From assembly GCF_003859795.1 (NCBI RefSeq), contig NZ_RQYI01000022.1, positions 1 to 40,876 of the forward strand: 40,876 nucleotides of DNA. Reading direction: 5' to 3'. Positions 12,547-32,876 of this stretch are shown here, in pieces. The translations under genes were made by a program, and so were the position numbers. The notes beneath the pieces were generated by a model. It made no database searches, had not been told where the DNA came from, and was given only the letters and a program-made list of their open reading frames with translations. This stretch comes from Alloprevotella sp. OH1205_COT-284 (GTDB taxonomy: Bacteria; Bacteroidota; Bacteroidia; Bacteroidales; Bacteroidaceae). How positions within the stretch are numbered: the first letter of the stretch is position 1; each line of letters starts with the position of its first letter.

Positions 12547-13125
12547 CTACTCGGCACTTAGAAAATTCCAAATGCCGAGTAGAACAAACGATCACTGACC
12601 TAAGTTTTACAAGTTGGAGCTTGCGAAATTTAGGTCAGTGATCGTTTGTTCTACTTGTTACTCCGTTTACTCCACTCCTTTGGTAAGATACATTCCGACG
12701 CATAAAAAATATATTGGGACAAGCCGAAAAAGAAGTGAGGCCATTCTTCGTAAAAGAACAACTTTCAGCCCCTACCAAGAGTTTTTCTTATTTTTGCCTA
12801 CATTGTCTACACAATCCCTATTAAGCATCAGATATACAAATCGTTGCGCATGTAGACAATGCAAAAGAATAACTACATTCGTTGTTACAACCTACACTCT
12901 GTATCGGAAAGGCTTGCAGTTGCTCGAAATTGTCCGTGTAGGCAGTGTAGGTTTTGGGAAAATCTGTCTACATTCGTTTTCATCTGTGTATCATTGACTT
13001 AGCCTCTTTCAGTGTATATTGAAAAGCCGTCTGCATACACTTTTATTTTACTGAAATTCAGCGAAATAAAAGGATCTGTGTATGTTTTTCGACAATTTTG
13101 CAAAATGATCATTGGGGAAGCATAT
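12547..13125 (+). repeat. Interspersed TCTACA-rich element, copy B
   Basis: A non-coding repeat of about 580 bp in the convergent gap between the small acidic protein gene and ackA. The left end holds two inverted repeats: 12547-12556 with 12573-12582, and a perfect 26-bp pair 12578-12603 with 12630-12655. Then come the shared block ACTCCGTTTAC, the AGAGTTTTTCT block (about 12778), and TCTACA words on both strands. The 27-bp core identical in copies C and D is 12871-12897. Near the right end lie the palindrome CTGAAATTCAG and the shared AAAATGATCATTGGGGAAG. A 127-codon frame (12614-12997) is judged non-coding because substitutions relative to the other copies fall equally at all codon positions. 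Confidence 0.85.
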
Positions 13126-13175
13126 ATAACGGGTCTGCGAATAATCCTGACATTAGTGCCTTTCCACACCATATA

Positions 13176-13221
13176 AAGTGTGCCCGCTTCTCGATCTGTC
13201 AGATTGCGAAGCGGGCACTTT
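13176..13221 (-). terminator. Hairpin downstream of ackA, probable terminator
   Basis: TGCCCGCTTC (13181-13190) pairs with GAAGCGGGCA (13208-13217), and outer AAAGT/ACTTT pairs extend it past a 2-nt bulge. It is about 75 nt past the ackA stop on the minus strand. The U tract is weak. Confidence 0.6.
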
Positions 13222-13296
13222 GTGAAGAATGCTATTGTTGAGGAAGAAGAGATGAAACTATCTTCCTCTTGTTTCAGAGGTGCAATAAAGGAAAAC

Positions 13297-14493
13297 TTAT
13301 TGCTTTGTCACCAATTCGAGGGTGTCGGTGGCAATGAGCAATTCCTCATCGGTAGGTACGACAACAACTTTCACGCGGCTGTCTTCCGTGGAAATCACCT
13401 CTTCTTCGCCAAAGTTCTTTTTGTTCTTCTCGTAGTCGAGCTTTACGCCAATAAACTCCAAACCGGTGGTCGATCCGTAGCGCACATCCCATTGGTGCTC
13501 TCCCACTCCGGCCGTGAAGACGATGATGTCTACGCCACCCATGGCCGCAGCATAGGCTCCGATATACTTTTTGATGCGGTAGTTGTACATTTCCATGGCC
13601 AACACGGCTTTTTCGACGCCTTCGTTGGAGGCTTTTTCGATTTCGCGCATATCGCTCGAAATACCCGTGATGCCGAGTACCCCCGACTGCTTGTTGAGCA
13701 AATCGTTCATTTGGTCTGCGTCAAGTCCTTCTTGCTTCATGATGCTGAGCACGACGGAAGCATCAATGTCGCCGGAGCGCGTTCCCATCATCAAGCCTTC
13801 GAGCGGCGTGAGTCCCATGGAGGTATCCACACACTTTCCGCAGTCTATGGCAGATACGGAAGCTCCGTTTCCGATGTGGCAGGTAATGATTTTTTGCGTG
13901 GAAGGATCCTTTCCGAGCACTTCGCACACACGCTTTGCCACAAAACGATGGCTCGTTCCATGAGCTCCCCAGCGGCGGATGTTGTTTTCTTCGTAATATT
14001 TGTAAGGCACGGCATACATGTACGCACGGCGAGGCATTGTTTGGTGGAAAGAGGTGTCAAAAACAAACACGTTGGGGAGTTCGGGCAACATCTCTTTCAC
14101 AGCCTCATAGCCTTTGAGGTGAGCAGGATTGTGGAGCGGTGCAAGATCCATATAGGTCATCCATTCTTTCATCATTTCATCCGTGACAAGACGACTTTCG
14201 GTAAATCGTCCTCCGGCAACGATGCGATGACCGGCTGCAACGATTTCGTCAAGGCTTTTGATTGCGCCGTATTCCGGATGAAGCAACGTGTCGAACATCA
14301 TTTTGATACCCTCTGTGTGAGTCGGGCAGTCAAAATGGATCGTGCGTTTTTCACCATTGAGAGTGGCTTTGAGAAACGCACCGTCAAGACCTACGCGCTC
14401 AATGCCGCCGGCGGCGAGCACGCTCTGATCTTCCATTTTGTAGAGTTTGTATTTTATGGAACTTGATCCGCAATTGATAACAAGAACTTTCAT
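13297..14493 (-). CDS. ackA: Acetate kinase
   Basis: A 398-residue ASKHA-fold kinase making ATP and acetate from acetyl phosphate. Family signatures: LVINCGSSSIKYK at the N-terminus, GHRIVAGGRF (about 87-96), FDTSFHQTMP (about 144-153), GAHGTSHRFV (about 175-184), HIGNGASVSAI (about 206) and FTAGVGEH (about 325-332). The catalytic Asp in FDTSFH and His in GAHGTSH are present. It is 102 nt downstream of pta in the same direction. The pair is the classical acetate branch and gives substrate-level ATP during fermentation. Confidence 0.97.
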   Translation of the reverse strand: MKVLVINCGSSSIKYKLYKMEDQSVLAAGGIERVGLDGAFLKATLNGEKRTIHFDCPTHTEGIKMMFDTLLHPEYGAIKSLDEIVAAGHRIVAGGRFTESRLVTDEMMKEWMTYMDLAPLHNPAHLKGYEAVKEMLPELPNVFVFDTSFHQTMPRRAYMYAVPYKYYEENNIRRWGAHGTSHRFVAKRVCEVLGKDPSTQKIITCHIGNGASVSAIDCGKCVDTSMGLTPLEGLMMGTRSGDIDASVVLSIMKQEGLDADQMNDLLNKQSGVLGITGISSDMREIEKASNEGVEKAVLAMEMYNYRIKKYIGAYAAAMGGVDIIVFTAGVGEHQWDVRYGSTTGLEFIGVKLDYEKNKKNFGEEEVISTEDSRVKVVVVPTDEELLIATDTLELVTKQ

Positions 14494-14595
14494 GGAGTTT
14501 ATTTTTTAGAAGAGAAAGAATGAGAAAATTTGAGGGTGCTCAATGTCATAAAAGCGCAGCAGAAAAAGGCGCACGACATGAAGCTCAAAGGCAGT

Positions 14596-15609
14596 TTATT
14601 TCGTTGCTTTCGCAGCGATGGCCTGCACGCAGGTTATGGCGATCATTTTGTAAATGTCATCCACGCAACAGCCGCGAGAGAGATCATTGACCGGACGGGC
14701 GATGCCTTGCAAAATGGGGCCGATGGCTTCTGCCTGTCCGAGGCGTTCCACCAGTTTGTAACCGATGTTGCCCACTTCCAAACGAGGCACGACAAGAACA
14801 TTGGCCTGTCCGGCCACAGGGCTTGTCGGTGCTTTGAGTTTACCCACTTCCGCAACAAGCGCGGCGTCGGCCTGCAATTCGCCGTCGATAAGCAGATCGG
14901 GACGCAACTCTTTGGCTTTTTCGAGGGCAGCGACAACCTTGTCCACATCTTCATGCTTGGCAGAACCGTAAGTGGAGAACGAGAGCATCGCCACACGCGG
15001 CTCAACACCGGCCACGGCACGAGCCGTATCGGCAGAACAAACGGCAATTTGTGACAACTGATCCACGTCGGGCACGGGAGTAACCGCCACGTCGCCCATC
15101 ACCACAATGCCGTCTTCTCCCAAATCTTTGGCTTTCGTGATCAGCACCATTGCACCGCTCACGCAAGTGATGCCGGGCACGGTTTTGATGATTTGCAACG
15201 CGGGACGGAGTACATCGCCGGTGGTGTTTCGTGCTCCGGCCAACTGTCCGTCGGCATCGCCGGCCTTGATAATAAGACAACCGAGATAAAGCGGATTTTC
15301 GACCACACTGCGTGCCGTCTCAATCGTCACGCCTTTTTTGGCACGGAGTTCGGCCAAGAGGCGTGCGTATTCTTCTTTTTTTTCGTGTTTGAGGGGATTG
15401 ATGAGCGTTGCCTTTGAAATGTGTCGAAGTTCGTGTTTTTCGGCAAGCTCCATGATTTGTTCGGGATCTCCGATGAGAATTAAGTCGGCCACTTCTTCTG
15501 CAAGAATGTGGTCGGCAGCTTTGAGCGTACGTTCTTCCGTACCCTCGGGTAGAACGATGCGCTGCTTTTGAGTTTTGGCGCGCGCAACGAGTTGTTCAAT
15601 AAGTGCCAT
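14596..15609 (-). CDS. pta: Phosphate acetyltransferase
   Basis: A 337-residue short-form Pta (catalytic PTA_PTB domain only, without the DRTGG/P-loop regulatory half of E. coli Pta). It converts acetyl-CoA and phosphate to acetyl phosphate for AckA. Seen: IVLPEGTEERTL near residue 18, the conserved AGARNTTGDVLRPALQIIKT (about 125-145), LITKAKDLGEDGIVVMGDVA (about 166) and GPILQGIARPVNDLSRGC (about 303). The start at 15609 gives MALIEQLVARAK, usual for this form. It is the first gene of pta-ackA, with a leader of about 170 nt. Confidence 0.96.
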   Translation of the reverse strand: MALIEQLVARAKTQKQRIVLPEGTEERTLKAADHILAEEVADLILIGDPEQIMELAEKHELRHISKATLINPLKHEKKEEYARLLAELRAKKGVTIETARSVVENPLYLGCLIIKAGDADGQLAGARNTTGDVLRPALQIIKTVPGITCVSGAMVLITKAKDLGEDGIVVMGDVAVTPVPDVDQLSQIAVCSADTARAVAGVEPRVAMLSFSTYGSAKHEDVDKVVAALEKAKELRPDLLIDGELQADAALVAEVGKLKAPTSPVAGQANVLVVPRLEVGNIGYKLVERLGQAEAIGPILQGIARPVNDLSRGCCVDDIYKMIAITCVQAIAAKATK

Positions 15610-15781
15610 TTAGATATAATAATTTAGTCTGTTCGATATAAGAAATCTCACCTTGACAGTAGGTGTACGCCTGAATAAGTTAGGGGAATGGGATAGAACA
15701 CTCAAATTCCGATTCGGAAACACGCGTTTCTTGTCGATAGTGAAAAAGAACGGAGCGGCCGAGAAAACTCGTACCGCACCG

Positions 15782-15789
15782 CAAAATTA
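15782..15789 (-). promoter_or_regulatory. -7 box upstream of pta
   Basis: On the minus strand TAATTTTG (complement of CAAAATTA) matches TAnnTTTG. It would give a leader of about 165 nt before the pta ATG. No TTG is seen at -33. No other exact box lies between 15610 and 15781. Confidence 0.45.
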
Positions 15790-15891
15790 CAAAAAAAATG
15801 TGTGTGTCGGGCGTATTCGGAGCTGTTTTTTCCTCTTTCTTTCGGGTTTCTTCGTCTGCAAATCGCAAAATCGCCCTTTCGTTTCCTTTGA

Positions 15892-17187
15892 CTACGATGC
15901 TTTGTTTCGCGTTTTTGACCAACGACGGTAAAATCGCTTCAAATCAATCTTGTAGAGTTCGTTTTTACGTGTCACCCACCAAGCCGTCAGTCCATAAAGC
16001 AAGACTTGCGTCCAGAGGGCGAAATACTCAAATCGAACGGCCGACAGATCGGCTCCCATTGTATTTAGACGGACAAAACCATTCACGCCGAACGTAGAAG
16101 GGATTAAATAAGAGAGGGTTTTCCAATACCACGGAAAAGCGGAACCCGGCCAGCTCACTCCGCTCAAAAACAAAATGGGAACGGACGAAAACACAACGAG
16201 CAAAATGACGCTTTCGCGATTGCGCGGCAACACGCTCAGCGTGATGGCAAAAAGGATACAAGCCAACAAATAAGGCAGCGAAAAGGCGAGGATTTCCCAA
16301 GCGTTACCGATCTGCGGCAAATCGAAAAGATGAGGCACCACGCCCATTTCAAACACCGCAATGGGCACATAGATCATCAGAAAAGCAGTGGAGCGGCCGA
16401 GAAGAGTGCGCAAGGCACGGCGCGAAGCATGGTGCGGTTGCGGCGAACGAGGATGCTTTTTTTTCGCAAAACCGTTTTCTTCGTTTCCGATGGTTTCGAT
16501 CATTGCCCTGTCGTCCAGTGTAAATTCTTCTGTCTGCGGGAATTGACGAGTGCTTTCCATACGTTCGCGGCGCGTTCCGGCTTCCATGCCGACACCGAGC
16601 AGCAAGGTTTGCTGAATAACGATCATCAAAACGGCAGGGATCAGGAAAGCCGCAAATCCGTTCTGTGGATTGAAGAGTGCCGTTTGCTCATAGTGTAGTG
16701 GCTGAACGGTCACTTCGTCTTCGCGATCGGTGGTGTTTCCGGCACGCGACACTTTGATGTCGGCATTCATGCCGAGCGAAACATCCGTGGCCGACGACAA
16801 GATGGCTTTGTAGTAAAGCATGCCGCTCATGTCGCAATAGAGATTGACATGTGCCTGTTCCATGCGCATGATGTTGCGCGTGAAATCTTCGGCAATGCAG
16901 ACCACCCCGTAAGCCTCCCGATGCTTCACGCGAGTACGTGCCTCTTCGAGAGATCGCTCATGTGAAACGATTTTCACATCGGGCGATGCGTCGAGCCGAC
17001 GCAAAAATTCGCGACTCATGGAACTACCGTCGGCATCCACCACCGCCACGGGTACTTCATGCACCGTTTCGTTGGTGTAGATAAAGGTATAGAGCAACGG
17101 GTAGATGAGCGGTACGAGGAGAAAAAATATGATGAGCCCTCCGTCGTTGAACACGTCGCGGATGGCATTTCTGAAAGCTTTGTTCAT
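15892..17187 (-). CDS. ABC-2 type export permease, second of two
   Basis: A 431-residue inner membrane permease of the ABC-2/YhhJ type. One N-terminal membrane helix (IIFFLLVPLIYPLLYTFIY, about 18-36) is followed by a periplasmic domain (about 40-175). A membrane block begins at about 185 (FAAFLIPAVLMIVIQQTLLLG), followed by four more helices toward the C-terminus. Between residues about 205 and 257 lies a charged segment (RRERMESTRQ... ENGFAKKKHPRSPQ) breaking the usual loop between membrane helices. It is encoded 12 nt after the first permease; the two probably form a heterodimer. It is the last gene of the tolC-hlyD-permease operon, and no ATPase gene lies in the operon. Confidence 0.85.
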   Translation of the reverse strand: MNKAFRNAIRDVFNDGGLIIFFLLVPLIYPLLYTFIYTNETVHEVPVAVVDADGSSMSREFLRRLDASPDVKIVSHERSLEEARTRVKHREAYGVVCIAEDFTRNIMRMEQAHVNLYCDMSGMLYYKAILSSATDVSLGMNADIKVSRAGNTTDREDEVTVQPLHYEQTALFNPQNGFAAFLIPAVLMIVIQQTLLLGVGMEAGTRRERMESTRQFPQTEEFTLDDRAMIETIGNEENGFAKKKHPRSPQPHHASRRALRTLLGRSTAFLMIYVPIAVFEMGVVPHLFDLPQIGNAWEILAFSLPYLLACILFAITLSVLPRNRESVILLVVFSSVPILFLSGVSWPGSAFPWYWKTLSYLIPSTFGVNGFVRLNTMGADLSAVRFEYFALWTQVLLYGLTAWWVTRKNELYKIDLKRFYRRWSKTRNKAS

Positions 17188-17199
17188 GAAAAGATGAGT

Positions 17200-18351
17200 T
17201 TAGGGGTCGTAGGCGATACGTGTCATCAGCGTTCGGAAACGTTCGACAAACAGGCAAGGCAGCAGGGCAAATCCGCAAAGTGCGGCAAAATAAGGCCATG
17301 CGTTGAACAATTCGTAGCCGTTGAGTGCGCAATTCACATAGAGCAAAAAATAGTGACGCAAAGGAGAAAGGTATGACAACCCCTGCAATGTGGGGTGCAT
17401 GGCCATGACGGGAAACGACATGCCGCAGATGCTGAACGAAATCACGCCCCACAACGAAGCAAAACTCAATCCCAGTCGGGGAGACGGCAACGCACAAATC
17501 ATAAGCACACCCAACCCCTGAGAGGCCACGACAAAAAGCACCAACAAGCCGAGCATGGTGGGAATGCCGCAAAAACACGGATAACCGAGATAGCCATACA
17601 GATACAATCCGGTGAGAACGGCCATCAAAGAGAACAGTAAAGTTTGAGGCAGGAGTTTCGCTATGAGCGCCTTGCCTGCCGATCCGTCGGCCAAACGCAG
17701 CAACACACGTCCGGTGCCTTCTTTGATTTCCTGCCCAATGGAGAAAACCGTGATGAAAAGCACCATTAGCGAAATCAGTCCGGGAGCGAGAATGTTGGAA
17801 AGATAAATACTGTAATTGAGCGAGGGGTTGCCGATGGCGCGTGTTTCGAGTACGATGGGCTGCAAGAAAGCCATGGCTTGCCGATTGGTGGCGCCGTGTG
17901 CAAAGAGTACTGTGCGCCCTGCCGCTCCTCCCACCAATTCGGTGAGTGTACGCATGTCTTTATAAAGCAACGATCCCGCCATCAGAAACGTGTTGTTCGT
18001 GTAAAACGAAACCGTGGGCGACTCTTGTCTGATTAGTTTTTGAGTTGTCCCTTTCGGTATGTAATAGAAGGCGTAAATTTCGCCCCTTTGCAGTGCCTTT
18101 CGCGCTTCGGTCACGGAGGGGTAATTCGCCACGATGTCGGTATTTTGGAACGCATCAAGATTTCGTGCAAGGGTTCTCGTCGTGGTCGAGTTGTCGAGAT
18201 CCACCATGCCGATAGGCATGTCTTGCGGCAATCCCTTGTCCATCATTGTCGTGAAAAACAACGCGCAAAACAAGGGCACTGCCACGATACAGAAAATGTA
18301 AATCGGGCGAGTTAAAATGCGCCGCCATTCTCGAATGAAGATTTTATACAT
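17200..18351 (-). CDS. ABC-2 type export permease, first of two
   Basis: A 383-residue permease with the YhhJ/YbhS-like layout: an N-terminal membrane helix (IYIFCIVAVPLFCALFF, about 17-33), a periplasmic domain (about 45-165) with SFYTNNTFLMAG, then about five membrane helices with the ABC-2 signature region GMSFPVMAMHPTLQGLSYLSP (split here at about 313). It probably exports a small molecule or drug across the inner membrane together with the second permease, using an ATPase encoded elsewhere and the HlyD/TolC pair of the same operon for the outer layers. The substrate is unknown. Confidence 0.87.
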   Translation of the reverse strand: MYKIFIREWRRILTRPIYIFCIVAVPLFCALFFTTMMDKGLPQDMPIGMVDLDNSTTTRTLARNLDAFQNTDIVANYPSVTEARKALQRGEIYAFYYIPKGTTQKLIRQESPTVSFYTNNTFLMAGSLLYKDMRTLTELVGGAAGRTVLFAHGATNRQAMAFLQPIVLETRAIGNPSLNYSIYLSNILAPGLISLMVLFITVFSIGQEIKEGTGRVLLRLADGSAGKALIAKLLPQTLLFSLMAVLTGLYLYGYLGYPCFCGIPTMLGLLVLFVVASQGLGVLMICALPSPRLGLSFASLWGVISFSICGMSFPVMAMHPTLQGLSYLSPLRHYFLLYVNCALNGYELFNAWPYFAALCGFALLPCLFVERFRTLMTRIAYDP

Positions 18352-18433
18352 ATAGCATGAAAGATTCCATGAGGTATTCGGGAAACGGATTTGTTTTTAA
18401 CGAGATGAAGAGAAGCATAACGCCCCCTGCTCA

Positions 18434-19417
18434 TCAGCGTTTGAGCAAGAGCGACATACCGGGGCGCAAGCCGTCGATCTTCTCAACCGGAACAGCCTTC
18501 ACTTGGAACGTCTTCATGTCATACTGCCCCGTGGCCTTGGTGGCTTTCCATGCGGCATAACTACCGAGATCTTTCATGCCGGTAATCCGAATTTTGACGC
18601 TTTTTTCGCCCAAAGCTGGCACCACAGCCTCCACAACATCATTGACTTTGAGCCATGTCATTTGATCTTCTCTCAAATTAAAAGTAGCCCACATCTTGTT
18701 TATCACGGCCACATTCATCACCGGTGCTCCCGTTCCGACCAATTCGCCCACAGAGGGGAAAATATCCGTCACCTCTCCGTCAAGAGCTGCGATGAGCACC
18801 GTTTCCTGCAAATAGCTGCGCACTTCTTCTATCGCTCCTGCGGCACGAGCTTCGACGGCAGCCGCGGCTTGCTTGTCTTCGGCTTCGGCACCGTTTTTGG
18901 CCATGTCGTATTGTGACTTTGCCGCACGCTCCGTGGCAATGGCCGCATCTCGTTGCGCGGTCATCTCGTCGAGTTTCTGCGCCGTGGCCACGCCTTCGTC
19001 GTGCAGCCTTTTGACGCGGGCATAACTTTTTTCCATCACCTCACGTCCGGCAATGGCTTTCTGCCACATTTCGTAAGCTCCTTGTATTTGCTCTTCGCGA
19101 GCACCTTTTTTTGCCTTCCGGCTCTGTGCCGCGGCAGCAGCCTCGGCCGATTGAGCCTGCGTGAGTTTGGCCTCCACCTCCGGAGCTTCTAGTATGGCGA
19201 GGGTGTCGCCGGCACGCACCATTTGTCCCTCTTCCACCAAGATTTTGGCCACACGACCGGGCACTTTGCTCGACACGCGATATTCTGTCACTTCGGCCTG
19301 CCCTTGCAAAATTTCTTCCTGAGGCGAGAAAGCATAAAAGCCGAATAAGGCGGTCAGGCATACCACAGCCACAATTAGGATGAGGGCGGGCATATAGTTG
19401 GGAGTTTGTTTTTTCAT
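18434..19417 (-). CDS. HlyD-family periplasmic adaptor subunit
   Basis: A 327-residue membrane fusion protein. One N-terminal membrane anchor (ALILIVAVVCLTALFGFYAF, about 11-30), a lipoyl/barrel-sandwich half domain (VSSKVPGRVAKILVEEGQMV, about 48-67), a long alpha-hairpin (about 80-195, very rich in Ala, Glu and Lys), the second lipoyl half (ALDGEVTDIFPSVGELV) and a beta-barrel domain ending LRPGMSLLLKR. It bridges the inner membrane permeases and the TolC channel. It lies 43 nt after tolC and 82 nt before the first permease, same strand. Confidence 0.92.
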   Translation of the reverse strand: MKKQTPNYMPALILIVAVVCLTALFGFYAFSPQEEILQGQAEVTEYRVSSKVPGRVAKILVEEGQMVRAGDTLAILEAPEVEAKLTQAQSAEAAAAAQSRKAKKGAREEQIQGAYEMWQKAIAGREVMEKSYARVKRLHDEGVATAQKLDEMTAQRDAAIATERAAKSQYDMAKNGAEAEDKQAAAAVEARAAGAIEEVRSYLQETVLIAALDGEVTDIFPSVGELVGTGAPVMNVAVINKMWATFNLREDQMTWLKVNDVVEAVVPALGEKSVKIRITGMKDLGSYAAWKATKATGQYDMKTFQVKAVPVEKIDGLRPGMSLLLKR

Positions 19418-19460
19418 TTTGAATATTTATTTTATTGATAATAATGATATTAGGCTATTT

Positions 19461-20969
19461 TTATTCTCCCAAAGCTTTGGAGAGAGCGGCACGTGTGAGT
19501 TTGGTGTCGATTTGTGCATCTATGTTGTCGCTTTGTGCAGCAAGCCATGCGGTTTGCGCAGCGAGAAGGTCGGTGGTGGAAATCATACCTTCGTCAAATC
19601 CCAATTTTGAAATTCTCAGATTTTCCTCTGCCTTAGCCAAGTTGTTTTCGGAAAGATGCAGTTTTTTATCGGCCTCATTCACCGCAAAAGCACATTGTCG
19701 GACTTGAAGTTCAATCTTTTCTCTCATTTCTCCGAAATGTAACTCGGCCATGCTGGCTTCCGCACGGGCTGCACGCACTTTATTGCGACCTTCTCCCCAA
19801 TTCCAAAGTGGCATTTTCATCGTCAATCCGACATGCCACGAACCATTGAACTTCTTTTCAAAACCATTGTGAAACGACGGATTGGTCACGGTATAACCGC
19901 CTGTCAATGCCACCGTGGGGAGGAAAACGGATTGCTCTATTTTCACTTTTTCGCGATAAATCGAAGCTGCATGTTTGAGTTGGCGCAATTCAGGCCGTTC
20001 GGCAAAAGCTTTCTCGATATCGGCCACCATTTGTTTCTCTTCCGAAGCCAGTACTTCGAGCTGTTCATCGAGCAAAATCGGCTGTTCTTCAAGTGACCAA
20101 CCACATAATTGTGCCAATAGCATGCGCGACAAAGTCAGTCCGTCGTCCACTTTGAGAAGCGTCATCTCTGCTTTATTCAGCTCCACGCTCACCGACAATT
20201 CATTGGCGCGAGTGGCCACACCTGCCGCAATCATTTTATTGACATCTCCGTTCAGATGTTCAAGCATATCGCGATAAGCCGTGGCCAGTTTCTTTTTATT
20301 CACCAAACTCACCACCTGCCAATAGGCCTTATCCACATCGAGCAATAGTGTTTGTTGTTCGGCGCGCAAACCTTCGTTTGCCAGTTCACGCCCATAACTT
20401 GTAATTCGATCATAGGCACGAATTTTTCCTCCCATATAAATGGGTTGTGTCAATAAAATGCCTCCGACAAAAAGATTGCGATTGTCAATATTCAATGCCT
20501 CCGACAGCTGTTGTCCCGTAGCATCAAGTTTTGCTCCAAGCGCAGGCAATGTTCCGGACATGCCCTGCAATAAAGGCATCAATTCGGGATGAGTAACAAG
20601 AATTCCTTGTGCGATTTGTTGGAACTTAGGCGCAATCCCTCCCACCAAATCCGTACCTATATGAGAAAGAGAGGCACGACGCTCAGAGCTCAACAACGAC
20701 ACGTTTTCACTCATATGCGTGTAATTGGCCATACCTGACACTTTCGGTAAATAGTTTGTGCGAGCCACGCGATGTTCATAGTCGGCCTTGCTTACCTTCA
20801 ACTCGGCCATGCGGATCTTTTTATTATGTTTCAAAGCCATTGAACGGCAAGAATCAAGCGATACACGATCGGTCGACAAAAGAAGCTTTTCTTTTGGAAA
20901 GGCCATTACAGTTGCCGAAAAACCGAACATTCCCACCAACACAAAAGGCAGGATCGAAAAATGTTTCAT
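19461..20969 (-). CDS. TolC family outer membrane efflux protein
   Basis: A 502-residue outer membrane channel. The signal peptide is MKHFSILPFVLVGMFGFSATVMAF. Two OEP repeats follow: about 30-235 (MALKHNKKIRMAELKVSKADYEHRVART) and about 260-495 (AFAERPELRQLKHAASIYREKV). An extra segment near 105-165 (GGIAPKFQQIAQGILVTHPE and following) is longer than in E. coli TolC, as is common in Bacteroidetes efflux channels. It is the first gene of the export operon, with a good promoter 32-60 nt upstream. Confidence 0.93.
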   Translation of the reverse strand: MKHFSILPFVLVGMFGFSATVMAFPKEKLLLSTDRVSLDSCRSMALKHNKKIRMAELKVSKADYEHRVARTNYLPKVSGMANYTHMSENVSLLSSERRASLSHIGTDLVGGIAPKFQQIAQGILVTHPELMPLLQGMSGTLPALGAKLDATGQQLSEALNIDNRNLFVGGILLTQPIYMGGKIRAYDRITSYGRELANEGLRAEQQTLLLDVDKAYWQVVSLVNKKKLATAYRDMLEHLNGDVNKMIAAGVATRANELSVSVELNKAEMTLLKVDDGLTLSRMLLAQLCGWSLEEQPILLDEQLEVLASEEKQMVADIEKAFAERPELRQLKHAASIYREKVKIEQSVFLPTVALTGGYTVTNPSFHNGFEKKFNGSWHVGLTMKMPLWNWGEGRNKVRAARAEASMAELHFGEMREKIELQVRQCAFAVNEADKKLHLSENNLAKAEENLRISKLGFDEGMISTTDLLAAQTAWLAAQSDNIDAQIDTKLTRAALSKALGE

Positions 20970-21000
20970 CAGTCTATAAATTATATTACTTATTCTTGGG

Positions 21001-21031
21001 CAAAGATACTAACAAAAACCTGTCGCGCAAA
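21001..21031 (-). promoter_or_regulatory. Promoter of the tolC-hlyD-permease operon
   Basis: On the minus strand: TTTTG (TTG = complement of 21028-21030), a 19-nt spacer, then TATCTTTG (complement of CAAAGATA, 21001-21008), an exact TAnnTTTG match. The leader is about 25 nt. Confidence 0.8.
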
Positions 21032-21429: not shown

Positions 21430-22007
21430 GTCGAACGCGCCTTTGCCCCACATCAAACGTGTTTTTTTAGGGCGATAGCCCATTATGTAAGCACCCTCTT
21501 ATGATCATCTCGTGAAATTGTCGGAAAACATACACAGCTCCCTTCATCTTACTGAAATTCAGACACATGAAAGTGTAGACAGGTGATTTACAAATATACA
21601 CTGAAAGAAGTTAAGCCTATGATATTCAGATAGAAACAAATGTAGACAGACTATCCAAAAACCTACACTGTCTACATGAACGATTTCGAGCATCTGCACG
21701 CCTTTCCGATATAGAGTGTAGGTTGTAACAACGAATGTAGTTATTCTTTCGCATTGTCTACATTTGCAACAATCTATATATCTGTGATTTAAGGAGATCA
21801 GTGTAGACAATGTAGACAAAAAAAAGAAAAACTCTTGGTAGGGACTGAATATTGTTTTTTACCGAAGAATGATCTCGACTTCTCTTCGGTTTGTCCGAAG
21901 ATACCTTGATGCGTCGAAACGCATCTTACCCAAGGAGTAGTACAAACGGAGTAACGAGTAGAAAAATCTATCACTGACCTAAATTTTGCAAGTTCCTAAA
22001 TTTTTCT
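21430..22007 (-). repeat. Interspersed TCTACA-rich element, copy C
   Basis: A copy of the same ~580-bp element on the minus strand, between the phosphate transporter gene and the tolC operon (both minus). Its left end (right side here, about 21945-22007) carries GAGTAACGAGTAGAAAAATC and ATCACTGACCTAAATTTTGC, matching parts of copies B and D. The 27-bp core is 21716-21742. The palindrome CTGAAATTCAG (about 21553-21563, read ACTGAAATTCAG) and the TGATCA segment follow. Homology to copy D extends to about 21430 through AACACGTTTGA (complement near 21450-21462). An 86-codon frame (21559-21819) is not considered coding. Confidence 0.83.
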
Positions 22008-25710: not shown

Positions 25711-25785
25711 AAAGATTTCAAAAAGTTGCAGCATTGCCCCTTGATAGGACAATGCTGCATGGCTGAACAGAAGTGATGCAGTCTA

Positions 25786-27531
25786 TCAAAGACCGAGGCA
25801 TTTCTTGATGGCTTCCACTTTTTCCATAGCAGCCGCTTTGGCTGCGGCGTGGCATTTGGGACATTCCATCTTACCCATCACTTCAAAATAGAACTTGATT
25901 TTCGGCTCCGTTCCGGAGGGACGAACACTGATTTTATTGCCTTCGGCGGTGAACCATTGGAGCACGTTGCTCTTGGCCGGCATATCGAGTTGTGTCACTT
26001 TGCCGTCGCAATCAAAGGCTTGGAGCAATTCGTAGTCTTTGGTGAGCACAACCTTTTCACCGGCAATCTCTTTCGGAGGATTATTGCGGAAATTGCTCAT
26101 CATCGCTTTGATTTCGTCGGCTCCGCTCTTGCCGGGACGCACGACATTGATTGTGTGGTTGAGCGAGAAGCCATATTCCACATAAATGTCCATCAAGACG
26201 TCATAAAGCGTTTTGCCTTGATCTTTTGCCCAAGCACAAATTTCGGCCAACAGCGAACAAGCCGACACGGCATCTTTGTCGCGGACAATGTCTTGTCCCA
26301 TGAAGCCATAGCTTTCTTCTCCGCCGCCAATATAGGTTTTCTTGCCTTCGAGCATGCGAATGACACGGGCAATCCACTTGAAACCGGTGTATTCGTCGTA
26401 CATCTCTACATTGTTCTTGTCGGCGATGGCTTTGATCAACTCGGTGGTAACGATGGTTTTGACGATATATTCATCGCCCTTCATCTTACCGAGTGCGATG
26501 CGATTCTTAATGATGTAATACAAGAAGATCATGCAGGTTTGATTTCCGTCGATCAACACCCATTCTCCTTCGTTGTTTTTGCAGGCCATTCCCACGCGGT
26601 CGGCATCGGGGTCGGAGGCCATCACAATATCTGCGTCTATTTTCTTGGCAAGTTCGAGCGAGAGGGTCAAGGCTTCGGCATTTTCGGGATTGGGAGAAAC
26701 CACGGTGGGGAAATTCCCGTCCTTGATCATCTGCTCGGGCACACAATTCACATTTTCAAAACCCCATTTTTTAAGAGAGGCCGGAATGAGAATACGTCCT
26801 GCACCGTGAATGGGCGTATAGACGATGCTCAAATCTTTTTGTCTTTGGATGACTTCGGGGTCAATGGAGAGTTGTTGCACACCTTCGAGATAGAGTTTGT
26901 CGATTTCTTCTCCGATGATTTGAATCAGTTCGGGGCGTCCTTCAAACTTCACATCTGCCAACTGCACTTTGTTCACCTCTTCGATAATGCCTTTGTCGTG
27001 GGGCGAAAGCACCTGAGAGCCGTCTTCCCAATAGGCTTTGTAGCCGTTATATTCGCGGGGGTTGTGGCTGGCGGTGATGTTCACACCCGACTGACAGCCG
27101 AAATGGCGAATGGCAAACGAAACTTCGGGCGTGGGGCGGAGGTCTTCAAACAAATATACCTTGATGCCATTGGCGGTAAAGACATTGGCCGTTGTTTCGG
27201 CAAAAAGGCGGCTGTTGTTTCGGCAATCGTGGCCGACCACAACCGAGATTTGCTCCTTGTCGGCAAAGTTTTTGAGCAAATAATTGGCCAGTCCTTGTGT
27301 CGCCGCTCCGATCACATAAATATTCATGCGATTGGTTCCGGCTCCCATGATACCGCGCAAACCGCCGGTACCGAATTCAAGCGTTTGGTAGAAGGCGTCG
27401 ATCAACGGCGTCTTATCATCGGCATCAAGCATGGCCTGCACTTCCGCTTTGGTTTCTTTGTCATAAAGCGGAGAATCGATCCACTGCTGAGCCACTTGTG
27501 CACACTGTGCAATGAGTTCTTGGTTTTCCAT
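25786..27531 (-). CDS. Phosphoglucomutase/phosphomannomutase family protein
   Basis: A 581-residue alpha-D-phosphohexomutase, the long form related to PgmB/PGM2-like enzymes. The active-site phosphoserine lies in ITASHNPREYNGYKAYW (about 148-164). The metal loop is ASDPDADRVGMA (about 303), the sugar-binding loop GGEESYGF (about 400) and the phosphate-binding loop RPSGTEPKIKFY (about 545). It interconverts glucose or mannose 1- and 6-phosphates in the cytoplasm, linking galactose use (galactose operon at 33111), glycolysis and polysaccharide synthesis. It also carries two cysteines near the C-terminus (CPKCHAAAK). Which hexose it prefers is not readable. It is first in a likely operon with nudC. 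Confidence 0.92.
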   Translation of the reverse strand: MENQELIAQCAQVAQQWIDSPLYDKETKAEVQAMLDADDKTPLIDAFYQTLEFGTGGLRGIMGAGTNRMNIYVIGAATQGLANYLLKNFADKEQISVVVGHDCRNNSRLFAETTANVFTANGIKVYLFEDLRPTPEVSFAIRHFGCQSGVNITASHNPREYNGYKAYWEDGSQVLSPHDKGIIEEVNKVQLADVKFEGRPELIQIIGEEIDKLYLEGVQQLSIDPEVIQRQKDLSIVYTPIHGAGRILIPASLKKWGFENVNCVPEQMIKDGNFPTVVSPNPENAEALTLSLELAKKIDADIVMASDPDADRVGMACKNNEGEWVLIDGNQTCMIFLYYIIKNRIALGKMKGDEYIVKTIVTTELIKAIADKNNVEMYDEYTGFKWIARVIRMLEGKKTYIGGGEESYGFMGQDIVRDKDAVSACSLLAEICAWAKDQGKTLYDVLMDIYVEYGFSLNHTINVVRPGKSGADEIKAMMSNFRNNPPKEIAGEKVVLTKDYELLQAFDCDGKVTQLDMPAKSNVLQWFTAEGNKISVRPSGTEPKIKFYFEVMGKMECPKCHAAAKAAAMEKVEAIKKCLGL

Positions 27532-27573
27532 ATCGGATATTTCGTTTTTGAAAGTTATTGGGGTTTATCCGTG

Positions 27574-27604
27574 CAAAAATAATGAATAAATAAGAGCCTG
27601 CCAA
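27574..27604 (-). promoter_or_regulatory. Promoter of the phosphohexomutase-nudC operon
   Basis: On the minus strand TTG (complement of 27602-27604), 20 nt, TATTTTTG (complement of CAAAAATA, 27574-27581). An exact TAnnTTTG box; the leader is about 35 nt. Confidence 0.78.
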
Positions 27605-27785
27605 GCCTCTTCTCCGTTTTCGACCTTGCACGAGGAGAAAAAGCACGAAAAAGGACAAAACACTTTTCTTTGAAAACACACCACTCTGTGTTCCCCTCTT
27701 TTCGACGAGCACCCCATGACCGCACCGCATCACTCCGAAATCTTTTGAGAGATGCGTTGCCCGTCATGTATTTTCAAAGAGAAGA
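27605..27785. other. Intergenic stretch, no gene seen
   Basis: Between the phosphohexomutase promoter and the hairpin downstream of the CoA ligase. Short frames here have no recognisable content; no repeat copy or RNA gene. Confidence 0.5.
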
Positions 27786-27836
27786 AAGCTCCTTGCTTTC
27801 TCCAACGCTCACGGAGCGTCGAAAAGCGAGGAGCTT
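27786..27836 (-). terminator. Hairpin downstream of the fatty acid-CoA ligase, probable terminator
   Basis: AAGCTCCTTGCTT (27786-27798) pairs with AAGCGAGGAGCTT (27824-27836) with one G-T pair. An inner hairpin ACGCTC/GAGCGT encloses ACG. It lies about 40 nt past the ligase stop; no clear U run. Confidence 0.55.
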
Positions 27837-27875
27837 CCGGTAGTTGCACGCAAAGGCCGAAAGCCTCTCGTTTTA

Positions 27876-29552
27876 TCAGATTTCTACATTTTCATAAAGA
27901 AAACGCTTAATGGAACGTTTGGGCGTTTTTTCAAATTCTTCTTTGTAGATCTTGATACCCACAATTTGTTCGTATGCGTTGATCATGGCGTTGAGGTCTC
28001 GGCGATTTTGCTCCATTTGGTGGGCAATGGCGTGTTCGTCCATGCCGTCTTTTTCGGCTTCTTCATAGTCGGGATGAATCAGCGCATAGAGTTTTTCGCC
28101 TTTCTGCACCACTATGCTTTCCATGACATAAGGCAGGGTGTTGAGCTTGTCTTCAATCTCTTCCGGATAGATATTCTGTCCGTTTGAACCCAAAAGCATG
28201 TTTTTGCAACGGCCGCGAATGAAAAGATTTCCGGAGTGGTCGAGAATGCCCAAGTCCCCCGTGTGATACCAGCCCTCTTGGTCTATGGCCTGCGCCGTGG
28301 CTTCGGGATTTTTGTAGTAGCCCAACATGACATTGGCACCTCTCACCAAAATCTCGCCCACCACATGCTGCGGATCGGCACTGTTAATTTTGACCTCCAT
28401 GCGCGGAGCTGCTTTTCCGCAAGAACCGGGCACGAATCGCTGCCAATCTTCATAGGTAATAATAGGTGCACATTCGGTAGCACCATAGCCCACAGTGTAA
28501 TTGAAACCTATCTTTTTCAGAAACTGCTCGACTTCTGTGTTGATGGCCGCACCGCCGATGATGACTTCATAAAACTCACCTCCAAACACATTCATGATCT
28601 GTTCGCGCACTTTCGACAAAATTTTGTCGCTGATGACGGGCACTCTCAACAAGAGCTTCATGGAAGTTCGTTCGAGTTTTGGCAACACGTTGCGCTTGAT
28701 AATTTTTTCGATGATCAGCGGAACACTGATCACCACACAGGGCTTAACTTCCGAGAAAGCCTGAACAATCACTTTCGGACTGGGAAGACGTGTCAGATAG
28801 TAGACATGAATACCGTAAATAAACTCAAACAAAAATTCAAAGGACATGCCATACATGTGTGCCATAGGCAGCATCGAAATAATACTGTTGCCCGGCCTCA
28901 CCTTTTCGCCCAACACCTCAATCGCAAATTCGTAGTTCGACCAAACGGCTCGATAGGGAATGAGCACTCCTTTGGAGTTGGAAGTCGTTCCGGAGGTGTA
29001 GTTGATAATAGCCAAAGCCTCGCCATCGGGGGCAGGGCGATAGCTGACGTGCTCTTTTCTGAAAAATTTCGGATATTTCTTGCCGTAAAGCGCATTCAGA
29101 CGCTCGCGGGCATCGGTCAAGGCTTCGTTGCGACTGAGTTGGAGCATGAAGTCCGGCAAATAAATAATTCCCTCCAAATTAGGCATTTCGTCGGGCGAAA
29201 GCATCGGCCAAACCACATCGCCGACAAAGAGCAAACGGGCATCGGAGTGATTGACGATGTTGTGTACTTGATCGGCCTTAAACTCATGAAGAATAGGCAC
29301 CACCACGCCGCCATAGGTCATCGTCGCCAAAAAGGCCACTGCCCAGTGGGCACTGTTGCGGCCGCAAATGGCTATTTTGTCGCCGGGTTGAATGCCGGCT
29401 GTTTCAAAGAGGATATGTAATTTCTCGATTTTTCGAGCCACGTCTTTATATTGAAGCGTGCCCCCTTTATAGTCGGTCAAAGCATCCATGTCCCAATGAT
29501 CGACAATGCTTTTTTGAATTAGACCGACGTAATCTTTATATTGATAGTCCAT
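27876..29552 (-). CDS. Long-chain fatty acid-CoA ligase-like AMP-binding enzyme
   Basis: A 558-residue ANL-superfamily ligase activating an acyl chain through acyl-adenylate to acyl-CoA. The P-loop motif is NYTSGTTSNSKGVL (about 189-202). Others: the VGYGATECAPII motif (about 354), TGDLG (about 432) and GRCKNMLLGSNGQNIYPEEI (about 446-465) with the hinge region. The C-terminal catalytic Lys is probably in KTPKRSIKRFLYEN. The closest pattern is the FadD-like / AMP-binding acid ligase group, cytoplasmic or membrane-associated. Possible roles are incorporation of exogenous fatty acids or acyl-chain recycling. No beta-oxidation genes are adjacent. It is monocistronic, with its own promoter. Confidence 0.87.
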   Translation of the reverse strand: MDYQYKDYVGLIQKSIVDHWDMDALTDYKGGTLQYKDVARKIEKLHILFETAGIQPGDKIAICGRNSAHWAVAFLATMTYGGVVVPILHEFKADQVHNIVNHSDARLLFVGDVVWPMLSPDEMPNLEGIIYLPDFMLQLSRNEALTDARERLNALYGKKYPKFFRKEHVSYRPAPDGEALAIINYTSGTTSNSKGVLIPYRAVWSNYEFAIEVLGEKVRPGNSIISMLPMAHMYGMSFEFLFEFIYGIHVYYLTRLPSPKVIVQAFSEVKPCVVISVPLIIEKIIKRNVLPKLERTSMKLLLRVPVISDKILSKVREQIMNVFGGEFYEVIIGGAAINTEVEQFLKKIGFNYTVGYGATECAPIITYEDWQRFVPGSCGKAAPRMEVKINSADPQHVVGEILVRGANVMLGYYKNPEATAQAIDQEGWYHTGDLGILDHSGNLFIRGRCKNMLLGSNGQNIYPEEIEDKLNTLPYVMESIVVQKGEKLYALIHPDYEEAEKDGMDEHAIAHQMEQNRRDLNAMINAYEQIVGIKIYKEEFEKTPKRSIKRFLYENVEI

Positions 29553-29670
29553 CGAAAGAAAGATGTTTTATGTAAGGTCAAAAAATTAGCCCATCAAATG
29601 AGAAAACTTTCACAGTAAATTTGATCTGACTAAACGGTGTTTCTCCTTGCGCATTTTCAAACGCTGTGTG

Positions 29671-29700
29671 CAAAAGTACGATTTTTTTTAGAACCGCCAA
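29671..29700 (-). promoter_or_regulatory. Promoter of the fatty acid-CoA ligase
   Basis: On the minus strand TTG (complement of 29698-29700), 19 nt, TACTTTTG (complement of CAAAAGTA, 29671-29678). The leader is about 110 nt. Confidence 0.7.
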
Positions 29701-29743
29701 GGATTAAAGAAAGAGAAACTGCACACAACAAGGGATTTTTGTG

Positions 29744-29751
29744 TAATTTTG
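29744..29751 (+). promoter_or_regulatory. -7 box of mltG
   Basis: TAATTTTG matches TAnnTTTG. It overlaps an in-frame ATG at 29749, so that codon cannot lie in the transcript and the ATG at 29836 is the better start. No good -33 TTG. Confidence 0.55.
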
Positions 29752-29835
29752 CGGCAGAAAGAAAGCAGCCTCCTTTTCTTCTTCTTCCACCTATCCACAG
29801 AGGAGAGATCACAACAAGAAGCATCTGTTTTTTCG

Positions 29836-30861
29836 ATGAACATACTTTGCAACAAACACTATCAGCGAGCCGTCGCCGGTCTTTCGGCCGCCGCGCTCAT
29901 CGTTCTGTCCGTTGTTTCGGTTTTGGGAAATTTTTCCGACAGTCGTGAAAGCATACTCCACATCGACAGGGACGACAGCGCAGACTCCGTGTATCACAAA
30001 CTGCGGGAACGCAGCGGTTTCCTCTCTTTTTCCGCTTTCAGACTATTGGCAGCCGTGGGCAACTACGAGCGTCACCTACACGTCGGATGTTACGACGTGG
30101 GAAGCGGACATTCGACGCTCGACGTTTTTCGACGTTTGCGCAACGGCAGCCAAACTCCCATTCGTCTGACCATACCCGTTTTGCGCACCCCCGAAGACTT
30201 GTCCGTTTTTTTGGGAAAGACATTGCACGACAGCCCCCAACAATTCCTCGCCTCACTCACCGACTCCACCCTCTTGGCGCAATACGGCAAACGTCCCGAA
30301 ACGGCCGTATGCCTTTTCATTCCCAACACTTACGAAGTGTATTGGAGCAGCTCACCGCAACGTCTCATCGAAAAGATGCACCGGGAAAGTCGCATTTTTT
30401 GGAACAACCGACGACTCGAAAAAGCCCGACAAGCCGGTTTGTCGGAAGACGAAGTGCTGACGCTGGCCTCCATTGTGGAACAGGAAACGGCCGATAACGC
30501 CGAGAAGCCGACCGTGGCGGGCATGTATCTCAACCGCCTGCGGAAATCCATGCCCTTGCAAGCCGACCCCACCGTTAAGTTCGCATTGCGCGAATTCGGT
30601 CTGCGGCGCATTCTCCACAAACACCTCACCACCGACAGCCCCTACAACACCTATAAAAACAGAGGGTTGCCCCCCGGCCCCATTTGCATTCCTTCGCAGG
30701 CAAGTATCGACGCCGTGCTCAACCATGTTCGACACGAGTATATATATATGTGTGCCAAAGAAGACTTTTCCGGAAGTCACAACTTTGCAATCACCTATGC
30801 CGAGCATTTGCAAAATGCCAAGAAATATATTCAAGCTCTTGATCGAAGAGGCATTCGATAA
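29836..30861 (+). CDS. mltG: Endolytic murein transglycosylase MltG (YceG-like)
   Basis: About 341 residues. One N-terminal membrane anchor (AVAGLSAAALIVLSVVSVLG, about 12-31) with the catalytic domain in the periplasm. The LysM-like region follows (about 40-110). The YceG core has LASIVEQETADNAEKPTVAG, with the catalytic Glu215 in SIVEQET, then MPLQADPTVKFAL and the closing YNTYKNRGLPPGPICIPS. MltG cuts nascent glycan strands and so sets their length. The start is moved to 29836 because the promoter box covers the upstream ATG. A DUF3078 gene follows within 52 nt and may share the transcript. Confidence 0.92.
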   Translation: MNILCNKHYQRAVAGLSAAALIVLSVVSVLGNFSDSRESILHIDRDDSADSVYHKLRERSGFLSFSAFRLLAAVGNYERHLHVGCYDVGSGHSTLDVFRRLRNGSQTPIRLTIPVLRTPEDLSVFLGKTLHDSPQQFLASLTDSTLLAQYGKRPETAVCLFIPNTYEVYWSSSPQRLIEKMHRESRIFWNNRRLEKARQAGLSEDEVLTLASIVEQETADNAEKPTVAGMYLNRLRKSMPLQADPTVKFALREFGLRRILHKHLTTDSPYNTYKNRGLPPGPICIPSQASIDAVLNHVRHEYIYMCAKEDFSGSHNFAITYAEHLQNAKKYIQALDRRGIR

Positions 30862-30912
30862 CATCCTCACATGACTTCTCTTCTATTTTCTTCACGTTCT
30901 TTCTCTCTAATC

Positions 30913-32235
30913 ATGACTCGTTTTTTTTCATTTCCCACACCTCTTTTACTACTACTTTCATTCCACGCACAAATAACCTTCGGGCTTTCCGAACCAACCA
31001 AACGTTCACACGCTCTTGCCGACAGCATCAATGCCATCGGACAACAATACGACCACTCTTTCGACAGCCTTCGCCAAGAGTATGCCACTTGGCAATACCA
31101 CAAGCAGGATTTACTCGAAAACCCTTACTACTTTCCGCTCTTTGCCGCACCCACTTTTTATGATTTCCCTATCAAAAACCGAATAGGAGGTTTGGCCTCT
31201 CGCCAAGAAGACTCTTTCACCCCCGAAGTCATATCGGAGGTAGAAGAAGTGCTGCTCGACACTTACGCCTTTCACCCCGAACTCATCTACTATCGTCAAA
31301 AAGAGTTTGCCCCCTCTCCCCTTTCTCCCTCGCCTCAACAAAAATCCGTTGAAACCGAGAAAAAAGCACTCGCATCTCCACAAATTCCACCCACACAAAA
31401 GGAAGAGTTTGAAGATCCTGATTCTTTCGAGCTTTTTGTCAGACGCCCCAACTTTTGGAAATTTCGAGGCAATTTCTCCTTGCAATTCATGCAATATCAT
31501 GTTTCGGACAATTGGCATAAAGGGGGCGAAAACCACAATTCGCTCTTGGCCTCCCTTAACTTCGAGGCCAACTACGACAACAAGCAAAAGGTGACTTTCA
31601 ACAACAAATGGGAAATGAAACTCGGGTTTCAGACTTCCAATTCCGACACCCAACACCGCTATAAAACGAATACAGACCTGCTTCGCATGACCAACAAATT
31701 CGGACTCCGTGCCACCAAACGTTGGTATTACACCTTGATGCTTCAATCGTGGACTCAATTCTATCCCGGACACAAAACCAATGATCCCAAAGTCCATAGC
31801 GACTTCATGTCGCCTTTCGAATCGGTATTTTCTATCGGTATGGACTACAAATATTCTCGTAAGAACTTCGAAATCATCGCTACCATATCGCCCATTGCCA
31901 CCAACTTCAAATATGTGGATAGGCTTCACCTCGCCCCACGCTACGGTGTGGATAAAGAAAAGCATTCCAAAATAGATTTGGGTTCGACACTCACGGTCAA
32001 CACCAAGTGGAACATCACGAAAGACATCCATTGGTCTTCGCGCCTTTACTATTTCAGTAGCTATAAACGTGTGCAAGCCGAGTGGGAAAACAGTTTTTCT
32101 CTGAAAGTCAATAAATACCTTTCGTCGAAACTCTTCCTCTACCCGCGTTTTGACGACGGTGCCAAAAGAAAAAAAGGAGTGAGCTATTTTCAATTCAACG
32201 AATACCTGTCCGTTGGTCTTGATTTGAGTTTTTGA
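30913..32235 (+). CDS. DUF3078-like predicted outer membrane protein
   Basis: About 440 residues. The signal peptide is MTRFFSFPTPLLLLLSFHAQ (start 30913; an upstream ATG at 30871 would add 14 residues and make an unusually long leader). The middle (about 100-170) is low-complexity, Pro/Ser/Lys-rich. From about 185 on, the protein is beta-rich with alternating aromatic residues (NFSLQFMQYHVSDNWHKGGE, KWEMKLGFQTSNSDTQHRYK). NWHKGGE is the NWxKGG(E) hallmark of DUF3078. It ends with Phe (LDLSF), typical of outer membrane beta-barrels. Function is unknown; likely a barrel embedded in the outer membrane. Position after mltG suggests an envelope role but does not prove one. Confidence 0.82.
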   Translation: MTRFFSFPTPLLLLLSFHAQITFGLSEPTKRSHALADSINAIGQQYDHSFDSLRQEYATWQYHKQDLLENPYYFPLFAAPTFYDFPIKNRIGGLASRQEDSFTPEVISEVEEVLLDTYAFHPELIYYRQKEFAPSPLSPSPQQKSVETEKKALASPQIPPTQKEEFEDPDSFELFVRRPNFWKFRGNFSLQFMQYHVSDNWHKGGENHNSLLASLNFEANYDNKQKVTFNNKWEMKLGFQTSNSDTQHRYKTNTDLLRMTNKFGLRATKRWYYTLMLQSWTQFYPGHKTNDPKVHSDFMSPFESVFSIGMDYKYSRKNFEIIATISPIATNFKYVDRLHLAPRYGVDKEKHSKIDLGSTLTVNTKWNITKDIHWSSRLYYFSSYKRVQAEWENSFSLKVNKYLSSKLFLYPRFDDGAKRKKGVSYFQFNEYLSVGLDLSF

Positions 32236-32302
32236 AACACTCCGCTTCTCCTCACTTCTCCAACCGTCCGCCATACCACGGCAATGCCACCGGGCAAAAA
32301 AG

Positions 32303-32876
32303 GTAACGAGTAGAAAATTCTAAGTCTTAGTTAGAATTTTCTACTCGTTACTCCGTTTACGCTACTCCTTAGAGGAAGAAACACTCCGACGCATCAAAGC
32401 ATATCCGGACAAGCCGAAGGGGAAGCGCGGCCGCTCTTCGTAACGAAAGCAACTTTCAGCCTCTACCAAGAGTTTTTCTCATTTTTATCTACATTGTCTA
32501 CACTACCCTCCTTAAACATCAGATATATAAGCAGTTGCGAATGTAGACAACACGACGAATTAACTACATTCGTTGTTACAACCTACACACGTTATCGGGA
32601 AGGCGTGCAGATGCCCGAAATCGTCCATGTAGGCAGTGTAGGTTTCGGGAAAATCTGTCTACATTCGTTTCTATCTGATTGTCATCTACTTGACTCCTTT
32701 CAGTGTAGGTAGGTAAGTCGCTTGTCTACACTTTCATTTCACTGAAATTCAAAAACATGATAGGCGTAGTGTATGTTTTTCGCCGTTTTCACAAAATGAT
32801 CATTGGGGAAGCCACATCATTGATCCTCCCCTCACCTAAAAACACGTTTGACGTGCAGCCGGATGTGCGTTCGGCC
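32303..32876 (+). repeat. Interspersed TCTACA-rich element, copy D
   Basis: A third long copy of the element, between the DUF3078 gene and galM. Its left end is a perfect 21-bp inverted repeat (32303-32323 with 32331-32351, loop GTCTTAG). Then come ACTCCGTTTAC, CCGACGCATCAAAGCATA, the AGAGTTTTTCTC block and the TCTACATTGTCTACAC block (about 32489-32504). The 27-bp core is 32562-32588, and CTGTCTACATTCGTTTC follows at about 32655. The right part holds CTGAAATTCA and AAAATGATCATTGGGGAAG (near 32793-32811), and similarity to copy C runs on to about 32876. A 72-codon frame inside (32494-32712) is not considered coding. Confidence 0.85.

Follow-up and report, generated by a model that had tools for sequence, protein, structure and literature searches.

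The window studied here, a contig of 40,876 nucleotides from Alloprevotella sp. OH1205_COT-284 (NZ_RQYI01000022.1) that was analysed entire, as contig C15 of a genome of 2,305,284 bases in 93 contigs, contains several copies of an intergenic, non-coding repeat, of which we found at least 52 collinear copies and five diverged relatives in the genome as a whole. At its heart lies a core of some 300 bp with 11 TACA/TGTA word cores in both orientations, the best form of the word being TTGTCTACA / TGTAGACAA. Three candidate explanations had been offered in a first-pass annotation of the sequence: a non-autonomous mobile element, a structured RNA carried in 3′ regions, and an array of binding sites for a DNA-binding protein. 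The last fits best, because the linkers drift but the word cores and the distances between them are preserved, the words are helically phased and RNA covariation is near-absent; the structured RNA and a classical miniature inverted-repeat transposable element (MITE) are both disfavoured. Judged from these patterns, the repeat is very probably an array of protein-binding sites under selection, and the best explanation overall, which we favour tentatively, is that the helically phased array binds and sequesters a protein of the replication-initiator type. The dispersed, amplified chromosomal family of word arrays appears to be new, whereas the kind of array would, by analogy, be a known one, that of phage replication origins.

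Copies of the repeat and their genomic setting

The three long copies in the window, designated A, B and C, had been described as collinear, and pairwise comparison bore this out: A and B share an ungapped match of 403 nt at 80% identity (inverted), B and C one of 358 nt at 81% (inverted), and A and C one of 300 nt at 82% (direct). Their reported density in short words also held: the window has 22 sites of TGTAGRYA, a number that none of 100 shuffles attained (mean 1.61), and 18 of these 22 sites lie inside the three copies, with two in positions 1–310 and two elsewhere. The supposed fourth copy at 40771 proved, in the part that the contig covers, to be only a 21-bp tandem repeat running up to the contig end. 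The features concerned are as follows.

12649–13121, plus strand: copy A (locus L003), BLAST-matched extent, 80% identical to copy C and with the 403-nt ungapped match to copy B
12792–13092, plus strand: word array of copy A, 11 conserved TACA/TGTA cores at fixed spacing (derived from L003:1644–1944)
12578–12655, no strand: inverted duplication at the 5′ end of copy A, 36-nt arms, 92% complementary (inverted-repeat analysis)
21449–21987, minus strand: copy B (locus L005), BLAST-matched extent, 77% identical to copy C
21521–21821, minus strand: word array of copy B (derived from L005:1573–1873)
32303–32876, plus strand: copy C (locus L001), the query copy (alignment, BLAST)
32483–32783, plus strand: word array of copy C (derived from L001:1681–1981)
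32303–32351, no strand: brick-like inverted repeat at the 5′ end of copy C, 90% self-complementary (minus-strand self match)
1–310, no strand: diverged family 3 word stretch cut by the contig start (1–330 is 97% identical to C24:96979–97308)
40798–40876, no strand: 21-bp tandem bricks at the contig end, 3.8 units, 100% matches, with no visible word array (tandem-repeat match)

The repeat reported in the first pass is real, but the family is larger than three copies, and the diverged relative at 1–310 had been missed. A BLASTN search of the whole genome with copy C, which had been proposed as a check, gave at least 40 full-size copies with 74–80% identity to copy C, the copy number being a lower bound, as 40 of 114 first-look candidates were scored. 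Word matches recovered a further 12 copies of the same family (family 1), at least two of which are cut by contig ends. Among the 40 BLAST copies the pairwise identity averages 75% (range 63–93%, 780 pairs). The sequence CTACATTGTCTACA, with at most one mismatch, has 63 sites genome-wide, every one of them inside arrays of the same kind: 46 in the 40 BLAST copies, 12 in the 12 extra copies and five in the diverged relatives. The latter comprise family 2 (the starts of contigs C12 and C26, 90% alike), family 3 (window 1–310 and the end of C24, 97% alike) and family 4 (a single stretch on contig C30). On visual inspection, two pairs of contig ends, the window start with the end of C24 and the start of C12 with that of C26, are the same over about 90 bases, after which they diverge; these ends look as if they were the flanks of unassembled identical repeats, possibly rRNA operons.

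The arrays are intergenic, with a density of about one per 40 kb. With genes called by a simple open reading frame (ORF) rule rather than by a gene finder, ORFs were present on both sides in 48 of 55 matched loci; both genes run with the element in 19 of these, both against it in 10, and they are convergent in 14 and divergent in five, so that the element mostly avoids divergent promoter regions. ORFs that overlap the element were no longer than 150 amino acids among those listed (two at most per locus). The consensus has no clear three-base periodicity and has stops in all six frames; the repeat is non-coding, as had been proposed, and a coding relic is rejected.

Conservation, spacing and phasing of the words

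The best-conserved unit spans consensus columns ~150–630, about 480 bp. Repetitive extragenic palindromic (REP) sequences and bacterial interspersed mosaic elements (BIMEs) are made of 20–40-nt palindromic units, and the repeat, with its longer unit and 11-word array, is not one of them, in agreement with the first-pass annotation. The 11 cores lie at columns 319, 328, 371, 394, 413, 457, 466, 489, 533, 555 and 598. They are intact in 436 of 439 instances in the 40 BLAST copies and in 122 of 128 in the 12 copies found by word, compared with an average of 44% exact matches for 156 linker 4-mers used as a control. Both routes of detection, by similarity or by word, favour intact words, the 12 extra copies being the most biased. 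At most two of the 11 cores are changed in any one copy, although similarity-based detection could miss strongly decayed copies. Three spacings, of 9, 19 and 9 bp, are constant in 52 of 52 copies, and the remaining spacings (43, 23, 44/46, 23, 44, 22/23 and 43 bp) vary by 1–3 bp in nearly all.

In the eight closest disjoint pairs of copies, the two members differ at 53 of 804 sites in words and at 259 of 1513 in linkers. Because even these pairs differ less at word than at linker sites, constraint seems to act on single copies, beyond what would be inherited from a common ancestor. The pattern is unlike that of a neutral, decaying repeat, with the caveat that the copies were found by similarity.

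The 11 words fall on one face of the helix with a period of ~10.75 bp (R 0.83), a value reached by 0.1% of 20,000 gap-jittered spacings, period scan included. The words of family 2 (peak 10.7 bp, p 0.004) and family 4 (peak 10.8 bp, p 0.003) are phased as well. The test used the 11 chosen cores and left out family 3 and the less conserved TACA/TGTA sites at columns 406, 507 and 551; its null, like that for the repetitiveness of phage windows described below, was simple and purpose-made, with the scan over periods of 10–11 bp performed inside the null.

Word arrays in phages and the proposed binding protein

In the mechanism that we propose, the ~11 words of each ~300-bp core would be bound by one sequence-specific protein to form a nucleoprotein array; the protein would be of the replication-initiator type, the build resembling that of iteron-type arrays beside phage primase/VapE genes; and the arrays, distributed across the chromosome, would sequester the initiator and so act as an origin decoy or competitor. 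We infer protein binding, the initiator type of that protein and titration as the benefit from three considerations. An initiator-type protein is suggested because the words and their tandem and inverted layout are common to phage replication-module arrays, an effect of each copy because the words are intact in nearly every copy, and sequestering because there are precedents in the phage-encoded resistance (PER) origin of Sfi21 (PMC6356513) and the lambda iterons (PMC3349717). Taken in full, the origin-decoy mechanism, which is drawn by analogy, is possible but carries appreciable doubt.

Fifty viral loci were fetched by word patterns (45 + 5), 10 of which contain an array by a set rule; L163 and L192 have shorter word runs, below the array threshold. 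VapE or a related primase is present in six of the 10 array loci, compared with none of the 40 others, or in five of nine if L162 and L184, whose VapE is identical, are counted once. The primase query proteins came from L184, L147 and L193, so the independent hits are only L171 and L170 (plus the duplicate L162). The VapE-like domain of Pfam (PF05272) was matched with E values of 3.5e-80 (L184), 1e-77 (L171) and 3.1e-67 (L147), and TTGTCTACA itself occurs in 9-bp tandem and inverted form, 3′ of or beside VapE, in L184 (the contig of which is also L218), L171 and L147 from IMG/VR. Of 17 loci fetched by VapE, 14 were used, after L219 (VapE identical to that of L218), L229 and L234 (no VapE 3′ end used) had been dropped; L229 and L230 are one contig, and the region 3′ of VapE is nearly the same in L224, L225 and L230. 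In 13 of these 14 loci, the 300 bp on the 3′ side of VapE scored higher for repeated words than any other window of the locus, the exception being L226, where nine of 230 windows equal or exceed it. The words at this site vary by phage (for example GTCTAC, GTTGAC, TGTTAA, GTAACA, GTTACG and GGAAAC), and across loci L218–L233 the repeated word switches between phages at a fixed site, as if initiator specificity evolved fast.

The gene directly 3′ of the array is common to L151 and L170, and L217 has a 59% relative of it, the layout being similar and the word different. In L151, a lone gene for DnaA domain IV (L151:302–769; Bac_DnaA_C, E 9.2e-17) lies 5′ of the phage word array. A search for relatives of the L151/L170 phages gave two loci, of which one lies on the contig of L170 itself; orfX had no match in phage records, and a DnaA_C search gave weak matches in three unannotated records.

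Streptococcus phage Sfi21 has a D5/DUF5906 primase and, 3′ of it, an origin (PER) whose annotation reads '302 bp non-coding region, phage inhibitory sequence'. A paper citing Foley et al. 1998 (PMC6356513) describes this origin as copy-number-dependent and suggests that viral proteins bind it. The present core resembles it in being a non-coding array, ~300 bp in length, of short direct and inverted words; by eye, those of Sfi21 are tandem and inverted GTTACT/AGTAAC. The two differ in the word, in the single copy of the Sfi21 origin in its phage and in the neighbouring gene, as neither of the two VapE genes of the host genome adjoins an array. The lambda iterons, supplied in trans, silence the replication of phages with that origin (PMC3349717), titration of O protein or handcuffing being discussed; this was a plasmid experiment in E. 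coli that also required oop transcription, unlike the dispersed natural family on the chromosome described here. If phage-type initiators are bound, the family would be a natural chromosomal form of the plasmid-borne phage-origin effect seen with PER and lambda, and would give a reason why phages differ in their origin words.

Several observations weigh against a link with phage initiators. The VapE-adjacent arrays share with the repeat the TTGTCTACA word in 9-bp tandem and inverted form, but their spacing and phasing differ from those of the chromosomal families, and other phages have other words. For the phage loci L151, L170 and L217 the best period is 10.0 bp, at the limit of the scanned range (p 0.02, 0.10 and 0.002, respectively), and L218 peaks at 10.75 bp but with p 0.11. 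The tested primases were not seen in four of the 10 array loci (L151, with 1.6 kb of sequence, L190, L191 and L194). A profile of family 1 had no match to L151, L170 or L217 at E 10, so that likeness to these loci rests on words and layout, and it matched L171 and L184 only at E 0.005 and 0.02. The start pattern of family 1 was present in no viral contig, and BLASTN of copy C gave no match in 50,697 phage or 72,556 plasmid records. In the Sfi21 origin, the top 7-mers of an automatic count are AT-only, the GTTACT words having been seen by eye. A search of the host for VapE and Bac_DnaA_C, other primase families not being searched, identified no cognate protein, the viral searches above gave no cognate phage, and a resident chromosomal protein would account for the selection equally well.

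The host search yielded two VapE-like genes (L197 and L198, on contigs C43 and C68), which were rejected as partners since neither has a word array nearby; one of the VapE-like genes lies near a small gene that reads as a helix-turn-helix excisionase. Bac_DnaA_C gave two matches, with only dnaA itself above the cut-off, and no primase was present among the 18 distinct ORFs of the window that were scanned (10 in Pfam, 10 in NCBIfam). The DnaA box consensus is TTATCCACA, and TTGTCTACA agrees with it in seven of nine letters; neither TTGTCTACA nor DnaA boxes occur in the 3.2 kb around dnaA (L213).

Alternative explanations and occurrence in relatives

A rather unlikely, but serious, alternative is that the words are sites for a resident chromosomal protein concerned with nucleoid organization, regulation or replication control, and have no tie to phages. 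The intergenic occurrence of the arrays, intact nearly everywhere, their rigid phased geometry and the scarcity of divergent loci (five, compared with 14 convergent) are all consistent with such a role, and a protein of this kind would imply an unrecognized, lineage-specific and amplified DNA-binding system. A basic chromosome function should, however, persist in relatives, whereas the element DNA had a match in none of 30 relatives, including 18 of the same genus. The word pair CTACATTNNCTACATT has 12 sites in the window's genome, eight in G010 and no more than one in any other of the 58 genomes of the genus, leaving G010 as the only one of the 57 other genomes with more than one match. The G010 sites, seven of CTACATTTCCTACATT and one of CTACATTTGCTACATT (L093, L095, L097, L099, L101, L103, L105 and L107), are a smaller relative of the same theme; by eye, an ACGCGCG-type stretch similar to one in the VapE-phage arrays stands before five of the eight.

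More widely, when 393 genomes of the order were compared, an 18-bp tandem word (at most one mismatch) had 49 sites in the window's genome and a single site in each of four others, so that the family is amplified only in the window's genome among these 393. A 14-bp word was viewed by eye at ten loci in relatives, most of them in coding sequence, with L079 and L080 appearing intergenic. The long inverted pattern had a sole match (L041, uncultured Prevotellaceae) in a genome collection described as holding 84,980 species, from which the window's genome may have been left out. In L041 the pattern lies upstream of a DUF6078 gene; the link so suggested was rejected, as the window's genome is without DUF6078.

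Slightly less probable again, and on balance unlikely, is a non-autonomous MITE- or satellite-like element, the words of which would be bound by a transposase or replicase and the copies of which would be dispersed progeny. Mobility is still in play because the copies, numerous in one species only, must have spread by some route and none of the 30 relatives holds a match; the near-identical pairs within subfamilies (97% and 90%) and the breaking of contigs inside copies point the same way. Dead copies should decay, yet the words are almost never broken among copies that are ~25% diverged. Nor were element ends apparent: the end-to-end score of the consensus for terminal inverted repeats was 15, compared with a mean of 15.2 for shuffled sequences, and was reached by 56% of 300 shuffles. 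The 52 copies share no common boundary, with left ends at columns 0–286 and right ends at columns 615–766 of an 838-column alignment, the left edge of which is reached by eight copies. A classical MITE is disfavoured on these grounds together with the low number of changed cores, and no partner gene was identified, transposase families not having been searched in the genome.

Bricks of 21 bp similar to those at the window end flank some copies, outside the conserved core; they are optional. In this respect, the repeat recalls BrickBuilt, a MITE of Porphyromonas gingivalis with a minisatellite, which its description (PMC4596501) gives as present in 19 copies in one strain, with a leader and a tail around the bricks. 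Both are intergenic, multi-copy and non-coding, are associated with tandem bricks of 21–23 nt and disturb assemblies. In BrickBuilt, as described there, the core is the 23-nt brick AGAYCATARTATCCTCTCRTRTG, whereas the bricks here are of 21 nt and another sequence, and the invariant part is the word array, with no inverted ends found. By PHO4, the closest relative is G037 (79%), which lacks synteny with the window at copy B and so provides no empty site for comparison. It has its own 21-bp palindromic minisatellite family, of AAACCAAACTTTGGTTTAT type (L236, L237, L241, L242, L243, L131 and L132), with bricks flanked in some places by short inverted sequences; in 372,551 bases of G037 there were no occurrences of CTACATTNNCTACA, but 26 of TGTAG(A/G)CA.

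A stronger version of the origin-decoy explanation would make the 57 or more arrays, of phage-origin type and iteron-like, a gene-free immunity that titrates or handcuffs the initiators of phages or satellites and is selected copy by copy. We consider this improbable; were it true, the word differences among phages would in part represent escape from the decoys.

A structured RNA family of 3′ regions is very improbable: the inverted words could pair, RNAalifold predicted 28 pairs for the 40 copies and the upstream gene points into the element in 33 of 48 loci, but the covariation term was −0.39 kcal/mol, with a double change in one of the 28 pairs (many of which are invariant, and so uninformative either way), and helical phasing is a property of DNA. 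Across the 52 copies, the 70 top pairs of a G-test with average product correction included no series of complementary columns that covary, and an Rfam search of the window had no match except four tRNAs. Near-absent covariation and the lack of an Rfam family led us to reject the RNA. That no named element has this make-up stands as regards Rfam and the literature surveyed (titles and abstract openings, most subscription journals lying outside reach), where no description of the family was found; it does not stand as regards kind, given the likeness to phage replication-origin arrays.

Other features of the window include two nearly identical tRNA-Arg(ACG) genes in tandem (564–638 and 671–745), followed by an inverted repeat with 50-nt arms (749–884). 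Another inverted repeat, with 36-nt arms that are 86% complementary, lies amid overlapping ORFs at 39138–39220.

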